Source: Candidatus Methanoperedens sp.
GTDB lineage: Archaea > Halobacteriota > Methanosarcinia > Methanosarcinales > Methanoperedenaceae
Length of the DNA: 50,911 nt
Assembly (NCBI GenBank): GCA_012026795.1
Contig: VEPM01000030.1
Span: forward strand, 1-50,911
Reading direction: 5' to 3'
Of the stretch, positions 34,157 to 35,743 are shown piece by piece. The position numbers and the translations under genes are program-made. Numbering within the stretch: position 1 is the stretch's first letter; each line of letters begins with the position of its first letter. Under the pieces are notes generated by a model, which saw nothing but the letters and a program-made list of their open reading frames with translations, was not told where the DNA came from and ran no database searches.

Positions 34157-34230
34157 ACTTTTATATATCTTTGCGTCAGACAAAGTGTCAGACAAATGTC
34201 ATACAAGTGGCGTACAAAAGGCGTACACAT
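34157..34230 (+). promoter_or_regulatory. TATA box and five-unit 11-12-bp repeat array upstream of the RHH-ftsZ operon
   Basis: A TATA box (TTTATATA, 34160-34167) is followed by five imperfect units starting at 34175, 34187, 34198, 34210 and 34221: GTCAGACAAA, GTCAGACAAA, GTCATACAAG, GCGTACAAAA, GCGTACACAT. Spacing is 12, 11, 12, 11 bp, about one helix turn, so all lie on one face. The array covers the expected transcription start. Ribbon-helix-helix repressors bind such phased repeats, and an RHH gene follows. Confidence 0.75.
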
Positions 34231-34295
34231 GTATGCACTCTGATGAACCCGTCTAAAAAAGATAAAAACGTGAAAAATCTCAGGGTTTATCATTC

Positions 34296-34318: not shown

Positions 34319-34543
34319 ATGCAAAGAGTAACACTAAGGCTCCCGGAACAGCAATTAAAAATGATCGACATGTTAGTTGAGTATGGTGAATTTCCGTCCG
34401 CTAGCGAAGCAATCAGGACGGCTATAAGAGACCTAATCGATCAGCGAAGTGAAAAATTGGTTGGCAGGATGCAATTGTTCGATAAAGCAAAAGAGCAGTC
34501 AAAGAATGCAGAGTCATTCTTGCTCTTAAAAGAGGAACAATAG
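34319..34543 (+). CDS. ribbon-helix-helix regulator next to ftsZ (CdrS-like)
   Basis: 74 residues. The RHH fold is clear at the N-terminus: MQRVTLRLPEQQLKMID (DNA-contacting strand), VEYGEFPSASEAIRTAIRDLI (helices). The C-terminal ~25 residues are a charged tail. Haloarchaea have a short RHH protein, CdrS, cotranscribed with ftsZ2 and controlling division genes; this gene has the same place and fold, so a similar role is likely but inferred. It sits 45 bp before ftsZ on the same strand. Confidence 0.88.
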   Translation: MQRVTLRLPEQQLKMIDMLVEYGEFPSASEAIRTAIRDLIDQRSEKLVGRMQLFDKAKEQSKNAESFLLLKEEQ

Positions 34544-34588
34544 AAGGAATAATAGAAGGAATACAAAAAATCATCTGAGGGGATGAAT

Positions 34589-35743
34589 ATGGAATCATTT
34601 GTACAGGACGCATTAAAATTCAAAGAAAAGGAAACGAATTTCAAGCAGGCAGCATGCGGCTCGTCTGAAGAAATAGATGAATTTGGAACACCAAAGATCG
34701 TAGTAGTCGGATGCGGTGGGGGCGGTAATAATACAGTAAATCGTCTTTATAATATCGGCGTTGCAGGCGCAGATACTATCGCAATAAACACAGATAAGAT
34801 CCACCTGGATATAATCCAGTCAGATAAAAAAATCCTGATCGGCAAATCAATAACAAGGGGATTGGGCGCAGGCGGGTTCCCGGAAGTTGGAAGAAGAGCA
34901 GCAGAACTTGCAAGGGGAACACTTGAAGATGTACTAAAGGATGCAAATCTGGTATTTGTAACAGCAGGAATGGGCGGAGGAACAGGAACAGGCGTTGCAC
35001 CGGTAGTTGCACAGGTAGCAAAAGACCAGGGCGCAATTGTAATTGGAATGGTCACAAGCCCGTTCAAGGTAGAGCGCTCAAGGATGTTCAAAGCTGAGGA
35101 AGGCCTGGATGAACTGAGAAAAGCAGCAGACACAGTAATAGTCCTTGATAATAACAGACTGCTGGATTACGTCCCGAACCTGCCAATAGACCAGGCATTT
35201 TCAGTAATGGACCAGTTGATATCAGAGACTGTGAAAGGTATTACAGAAACCATTACCCAGCCATCATTGATAAATCTTGACTACGCAGATGTCAGGGCTA
35301 TAATGAAGGGCGGAGGACTTGCAGTAATGCTTGTCGGCGAGGCAAAAGGACAGGATAAGGCAAAAGAAGTTGTAAGAGCTGCTTTAAACCACCCGCTGCT
35401 TGATGTGGATACGAAGGGCGCAACCGGATGCCTGCTCCACATAACCGGTGGGACTGATATGTCTCTCCACGAGGCAGAACAGATTGCTTCATCACTGACT
35501 TATGAGCTTGACTCCCATGCAAACGTTATCTGGGGCGCAAGAGTAAAGAAGGAGTACGAGGGCAAGGTACGCTGCATGGCGATCATGACAGGTATCCACT
35601 CAGCCCAGATCATGGGACCAAAGGGAGACAGCATGCCAGTGAGAAACAGCGCTTCTTCGGTCGAAGAGAAAATCAAAGTGGCTGTAGCAGCTACCAGGAA
35701 CAATAGCAGGAACAGGGGTTCAATAATAGACCAGATCCTGTGA
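34589..35743 (+). CDS. ftsZ: cell division GTPase FtsZ
   Basis: 384 residues. The nucleotide-binding [13 protein letters not shown] (about 37-49) and tubulin signature [12 protein letters not shown] (about 128-139) are complete, as are [15 protein letters not shown] and [26 protein letters not shown]. The start at 34589 is preferred over 34583 because GAGGGG directly abuts the latter. The C-terminal tail after the core is short. Archaea often have two FtsZ; I cannot tell FtsZ1 from FtsZ2 by eye. A terminator hairpin follows at 35782. Confidence 0.95.

Follow-up and report, generated by a model that had tools for sequence, protein, structure and literature searches.

The DNA analysed here (the window: 50,911 nucleotides, contig VEPM01000030.1) is part of the 3.6-Mb genome of a Candidatus Methanoperedens sp., an ANME-2d archaeon judged by its relatives, and carries, on its forward strand, an operon in which a small ribbon-helix-helix (RHH) gene lies directly upstream of ftsZ2. 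The first gene, a cdrS-like open reading frame (34319..34543, + strand), encodes a protein of 74 amino acids; the second, ftsZ2 (34583..35743, + strand), encodes 386 amino acids and begins after a gap of 39 bp (34543 to 34583). The 74-residue product matched Pfam RHH_1 (27.9 bits, cut-off 20.5). Its best NCBIfam model was NF058555, CdrS (62.6 bits, E 2.6e-17); the cut-off of 100 for this model was not reached, and we therefore regard the protein as a CdrS homologue outside the haloarchaeal equivalog. Four haloarchaeal CdrS proteins scored 112-122 bits on the same model. The product of the second gene was identified as FtsZ2 with TIGR00065 (411 bits, cut-off 295) and by comparison with haloarchaeal proteins: it is 66.6% identical to a haloarchaeal FtsZ2 whose own next-best match is an FtsZ1-type protein at 47%.

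The predicted DNA-contacting strand of the RHH protein is conserved across the order, with M1, T5 and R7 invariant in 12 sequences. An AlphaFold model (pLDDT 79.9) contained two helices and left residues 1-9 without assigned structure. Foldseek searches with this model matched RHH antitoxins, none of them at an E value of 0.001 or better. The window's genome contains one close CdrS-type gene (2 matches overall). Eight FtsZ/CetZ-type proteins are encoded in the same genome (G000, L035-L042), comprising one FtsZ1-type, one FtsZ2-type and six others.

Upstream of the operon lies a promoter with a TATA box (TTATATAT, 34161..34168, + strand; TTATATA from 34161), and an array of six copies of a palindromic 9-mer, consensus TGTCAGACA, extends from 34174 to 34238, with unit 1 starting 13 bp on from the TATA box. 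Unit 1 (CGTCAGACA, 34174..34182) is followed by unit 2 (34186..34194), a perfect copy of the consensus palindrome, and by units 3 (TGTCATACA, 34197..34205), 4 (TGGCGTACA, 34208..34216) and 5 (AGGCGTACA, 34219..34227), all on the + strand. The seven-base cores of these five units are GTCAGAC at 34175, GTCAGAC at 34187, GTCATAC at 34198, GGCGTAC at 34209 and GGCGTAC at 34220. Unit 6 (34230..34238, - strand) reads TGTATGCAC on the + strand, an inverted unit of the GGCATACA type; its core, GTATGCA at 34231, is in the opposite orientation and in phase at 11 bp. This last unit falls below the chain cut at the window locus, and in several relatives an in-phase unit of that type (mostly TGTATGCCA) ends the chain. 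The palindrome consensus can be written TGTCnGACA, units 3-6 being degenerate, and the start-to-start steps across the six units are 12/11/11/11/11 bp. From the usual archaeal distance between TATA box and transcription start, transcription is predicted to start near 34190.

A sequence-only reading of this region had described five repeats directly after a TATA box, over the start site of an operon whose first gene encodes an RHH protein. The placement of the repeats held, as did the identity of the first gene (Pfam RHH_1 and NCBIfam), the start site itself being a prediction and the array being longer than claimed. The count held in part, since six units are present and GTATGCA at 34231 had been overlooked. 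Two of the starts given, 34210 and 34221, were each one base late (34209 and 34220 are correct), and the spacing of 12/11/12/11 was wrong; it is 12/11/11/11, followed by 11 to the sixth unit.

To score such arrays, a palindromic matrix was learned from the upstream regions of 29 loci of the family (Methanoperedenaceae), the window locus included, and units 11 or 12 bp apart were joined into chains, with steps of 10 and 13 penalised. The 260 bp upstream at the window locus gave a chain score of 42.1; the highest value among 2000 dinucleotide shuffles was 14.0, and the best other stretch of the 50.9 kb reached 10.3 (780 scanned windows, both strands). Because the window locus had helped to train the matrix, held-out loci were used as the fair test. 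In a spacing test in which all gaps of 9-15 bp were equally allowed, 62 held-out loci from the wider phylum, after removal of duplicates, showed 11-bp steps in 234 of 266 cases, while shuffled sequences were flat.

The RHH gene was present in 30 of the 34 family genomes, and the four without it were 68-84% complete. Upstream DNA was available for 29 loci (L033 was left out because its contig begins inside the gene), and in 28 of these, which formed the training set, an array scoring 20 or more preceded the RHH gene; the exception, L034, had three units. Among held-out loci, the same score was reached by 16 of 20 from the order outside this family, 13 of 20 from the wider phylum and 16 of 27 on named contigs, the last set overlapping the order and phylum sets and omitting L130, which has no upstream DNA. 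Lineages differed in the number of units per locus (2 to 9): 8 or 9 units in succession, every step exactly 11 bp, were found in ANME-2 relatives and in most cdrS-bearing Methanosarcinaceae loci, and 2 in some Methanocellales-type loci. Arrays were weak at some cdrS-bearing loci: G044, G056, G040 (1-3 units), G133, L034 and the Methanocellales-type loci with 2 units.

Within the 28 family loci, an ungapped alignment gave 1.38 bits per column for unit cores, compared with 0.57 for linkers and 0.30-0.38 for flanks, showing that the units are conserved and the linkers are not. The distance from the TATA box to unit 1 was 13-14 bp in 26 of the 28; in the other two it was 24 bp, the first unit being too weak to call. 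The distance from the end of the array to the ATG varied from 22 to 92. With the TATA distance fixed and the ATG distance variable, it is the promoter, not the start codon, that sets the position of the row. Absence of conserved phasing in relatives, which had been named in advance as an outcome that would refute an operator, was looked for and strong conservation was found, supporting that interpretation.

To determine where else such sites occur, genomes were searched for strong doublets, defined as TGTCWGACA-N2-TGTCWGACA with up to two mismatches. In 31 genomes of the genus, 24 of 26 doublets lay at the cdrS promoter, while a reversed control pattern was found at two places. In 25 further genomes, 27 of 33 doublets lay at cdrS and six elsewhere, with the reversed control at four places. 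The array is thus nearly exclusive to the cdrS-ftsZ2 promoter, as for an autoregulated RHH operon. A wider regulon within the genus was sought; the only doublets away from cdrS were the two in G026 and G028, which were read as chance. Three of the six away-from-cdrS doublets in the further genomes belong to a single Methanoregula-type genome (G279, L214-L216), two of them as nearly identical copies, and a wider regulon may exist there.

The converse comparison concerned genomes that keep ftsZ2 without a close cdrS. No array was found upstream of ftsZ2 in any of 20 such genomes chosen from the order (0/20; none scored above 11.8). Three of the 20 (L154, L155 and L156, from the genus containing Methanohalophilus) retain a frame-broken cdrS beside an intact ftsZ2, and the shared frame breaks suggest a single loss of cdrS. 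Their array scores were 6.4-6.8, compared with 37.5 in a cdrS-bearing sister, while the promoter just upstream was nearly unchanged (50-52 of 55 bases). Unit-core identity to the cdrS-bearing reference was 38-40 of 48 in the genomes lacking cdrS and 36-39 of 48 in more distant ones bearing it, so that positional identity alone is not decisive in this genus; the contrast lies in the array score and in the promoter just upstream (50-52 of 55 without cdrS versus 31-33 of 55 in the more distant cdrS-bearing genomes). Counting against a strict link between array and cdrS, the cdrS-bearing G133 also scored low (10.3), and arrays were weak at three loci of family f4 as well. A cdrS gene lying apart from ftsZ2 was sought in family f28, where ftsZ2 was found still to adjoin it.

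In Haloferax volcanii, 18 CdrS sites have been reported by ChIP-seq (PMC8406309, Table 1), among them sites upstream of ftsZ1 at -50 from the start and of threonine ammonia-lyase at -95, and the promoter of cdrS itself is absent from the reported sites (PMC8406309). The published H. volcanii motif appears in figure form alone (Fig. 4C, PMC8406309), and its link to the sites described here is inferred from the position of doublets in haloarchaeal DNA. The pattern GTCnGAC-N4-GTCnGAC, with its units exactly 11 bp apart, was present at 3/3 haloarchaeal ftsZ1 promoters, at -63 and -52 from the ATG in two genomes (G283 and G299) and at -65 and -54 in Natronorubrum bangense, about at the place of the published ChIP site. 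Between these units and the start codon, G283 and G299 have a TATA-like stretch. Across 2.0 Mb of two haloarchaeal genomes, exact doublets occurred four times at period 11, versus 12 in total over 30 other periods; in the same scan, doublets with one mismatch showed no excess at period 11 (16, versus 7-25 at other periods). All four period-11 doublets were in G299, where they precede genes for threonine ammonia-lyase (TIGR01127; 295 bp), FtsZ1, an S-layer-type glycoprotein and a bactofilin-domain protein (other strand). Two of these four, at threonine ammonia-lyase and ftsZ1, thus precede published ChIP targets.

The other two G299 genes, for the S-layer-type glycoprotein (L320:16860-19868) and the bactofilin-domain protein (L329:3807-5081), are predicted new CdrS targets. 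Outside the haloarchaea, no unit was found upstream of five ftsZ1 genes (L233 is outside this count), nor was there one at the FtsZ1 promoter of the window's own genome. A second RHH-ftsZ gene pair was noted on the Salinibaculum plasmid NZ_CP129994.1 (L259:1965-3659), and visual inspection of the 200 bp preceding it revealed no unit.

The haloarchaeal cdrS promoters carry a variant dyad, GTAAGAC-N4-GTCTTAC, with its halves 11 bp apart. In ten haloarchaeal genomes the exact dyad occurred at seven places, all upstream of cdrS, and dyads with one mismatch at four places, one of them at cdrS; the identity of CdrS was checked in four of the ten. The cdrS promoter of G277 has a 12-bp version. In Halobacterium, the sole reported binding place of the protein CdrL (RHH_1 plus a double zinc ribbon) is upstream of cdrS-ftsZ2 (PMC7439475); the protein is encoded upstream of cdrS and has been reported only from Halobacteria (PMC7439475). 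Given this exclusive binding, and since CdrS has not been reported at the cdrS promoter, we infer that CdrL probably reads the dyad, which is only a candidate CdrL site.

The repeats, their 11-bp phasing, their anchoring to the TATA box, their deep conservation and near-exclusivity, their absence without cdrS and the doublets at published CdrS-occupied genes are all observed. Our preferred reading is that the array is, in all likelihood, the operator by which CdrS controls its own ftsZ2 operon; binding, cooperativity and repression are inferred, in the absence of experimental data on binding or expression from this lineage. That an autoregulatory RHH operator controls ftsZ had been proposed by the sequence-only reading, and the proposal is supported by conservation, exclusivity, the joint absence with cdrS and the doublets at CdrS targets, with binding itself inferred. 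One CdrS dimer would occupy each 9-bp palindrome, its beta-ribbon in the major groove, and neighbouring dimers, 11 bp or about one helical turn apart, would be aligned along the DNA and in contact. Since the 11-bp step is close to one turn, the dimers should line up, and cooperative binding would be expected; RHH repressors such as Arc are known to bind cooperatively. The row would cover the predicted start and the first ~45 transcribed bases, and a filled row should therefore block initiation. Negative autoregulation of this kind would hold CdrS and FtsZ2 at a set level, and the units downstream of the start may also permit a two-phase response. The sign of regulation is the weakest step of this scheme: repression is probable and untested. 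Deletion of cdrS in Halobacterium lowers ftsZ2 early in growth, i.e. CdrS activates there (PMC7439475), so the sign may differ. Also weighing against the preferred reading are the lack of a reported H. volcanii CdrS site at its own promoter, the weak arrays at some cdrS-bearing loci, the lack of a period-11 excess among haloarchaeal one-mismatch doublets and the stable folding of the RNA leader.

It is also possible that CdrS binds the array as an activator or as a rheostat, partial filling activating and full occupancy repressing. This alternative draws on the effect of the Halobacterium deletion, on the activator position of the ftsZ1 doublet, ahead of the promoter both in H. volcanii and in the haloarchaeal genomes examined, and on the variation in unit number from 2 to 9 between lineages. 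Against it, the predicted start coincides with or precedes units 2-6, and regulators bound at such positions in archaea usually repress (PMC8406309).

Less likely is that a DNA-binding protein other than CdrS reads the array and controls the division operon. CdrS binding has not been demonstrated; in Halobacterium another RHH protein, CdrL, binds upstream of cdrS-ftsZ2; and the dyad at haloarchaeal cdrS promoters differs from the ftsZ1 sites. However, CdrL is reported only from Halobacteria, the array is missing where cdrS is missing even though ftsZ2 is kept (0/20), the same doublets stand at published CdrS targets, and the window's genome offers a single close CdrS-type gene (2 matches overall).

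It is very improbable that the repeats work at the RNA level, the leader serving as a structured attenuator or being bound by a protein. Most units fall in the predicted 5' leader, and four leaders folded more stably than their shuffles (z-scores -3.38, -3.32, -3.44 and -1.84). Palindromic units, however, fold by construction; unit 1 is conserved yet precedes the predicted start; the phasing is fixed to the TATA box and not to the ATG; and a regular step of 11 bp, kept over as many as 9 units, is the signature of a DNA helix. Rfam contained no family for the leader (best E 0.55), and a scan for sigma-70 promoters and terminators yielded nothing useful for an archaeon. Between the array and the RHH gene, the leader contains an inverted repeat, GATGAACCC...GGGTTTATC (34237-34293), which visual inspection recognised, in altered form, in six long-leader relatives (L006, L007, L008, L015, L021 and L022); it is absent from short-leader relatives and explains some of the stability of the RNA fold. 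Finally, chance or simple inheritance, by which the recent common ancestry of the family loci, all close relatives, would make an unselected repeat seem conserved, is all but excluded: within the same loci, units and linkers have diverged unequally (1.38 versus 0.57 bits per column), which refutes it, and it is further opposed by the recurrence of the strict 11-bp step in held-out orders and families and by the score of 42.1 against a shuffle maximum of 14.0.

An operator read by CdrS, our preferred reading, invites comparison with several known systems. The closest is CdrS-ftsZ2 of H. volcanii and Halobacterium salinarum (PMC7439475, PMC8406309), in which a small RHH protein is likewise encoded directly upstream of ftsZ2; the haloarchaeal doublets at ftsZ1 and threonine ammonia-lyase, two genes of the published ChIP table, resemble the Methanoperedens units. 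The haloarchaeal system differs in that CdrL is reported from Halobacteria alone and in that the published sites exclude its own promoter, whereas the strong doublets of Methanoperedens are found almost only there, in a row of six. The suggestion that the locus is a counterpart to haloarchaeal CdrS control therefore held in part: the protein is a counterpart, but H. volcanii CdrS is unreported at its own promoter and in Halobacterium it is CdrL that binds there. CdrL is alike in binding only upstream of cdrS-ftsZ2, as the Methanoperedens array is private to that promoter, and differs in its greater length, in being encoded upstream of cdrS and in its reported restriction to Halobacteria.

Dimers of RHH proteins of the Arc, MetJ, CopG and ParD types are well known to occupy tandem or symmetric sites at their own promoters. 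CopG/ParD antitoxins and NikR are the closest solved relatives of the window's RHH protein by sequence, although the fold matches were weak. The Arc, MetJ, CopG and ParD systems are bacterial or phage, many with a toxin partner; here the partner is ftsZ2 and the rows extend to 9 units. In Sulfolobales, aCcr1 is an RHH cell-cycle repressor that controls CdvA in an ESCRT-type system (PMC7617429, PMC12284271). It is similar in being an archaeal RHH regulator of a division gene, and differs in that the gene is CdvA and not FtsZ. The aCcr1 model did not match the window protein at E values up to 0.001, and was weak in two relatives (22.2 and 19.6 bits, cut-off 60).

Neither the CdrS-FtsZ2 pair nor tandem operators of RHH proteins are new in themselves. 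What appears to be new is a phylum-wide, 11-bp-phased operator row at the division operon and its apparent re-spelling in Halobacteria, CdrS binding being inferred. No printed description of the operator was found in the literature searched, with figures, supplements and most subscription papers outside the search. A bolder reading joins these observations, and the evidence for it as a whole weighs no more heavily on one side than on the other. A CdrS-read TGTCnGACA code, repeated every 11 bp, would have stood on the ftsZ2 operon before Archaeoglobi, Methanomicrobia, ANME and Halobacteria split, with 2 to 9 sites and FtsZ2 self-limiting; in Halobacteria the operon's own sites would have been re-spelt (the GTAAGAC dyad) and handed to a newly gained CdrL, freeing CdrS for ftsZ1 and envelope genes through two-unit sites.

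From the array one can predict the motif of H. volcanii CdrS, and additional targets, including the genes for the S-layer-type glycoprotein and the bactofilin-domain protein. The locus also presents a case of regulatory rewiring, in which Halobacteria have apparently transferred self-control to CdrL. The means by which archaea fix their level of division tubulin are still largely unexplained, and a readable operator, conserved across the phylum and linked to a regulator with a history of study in haloarchaea, makes that question directly testable.
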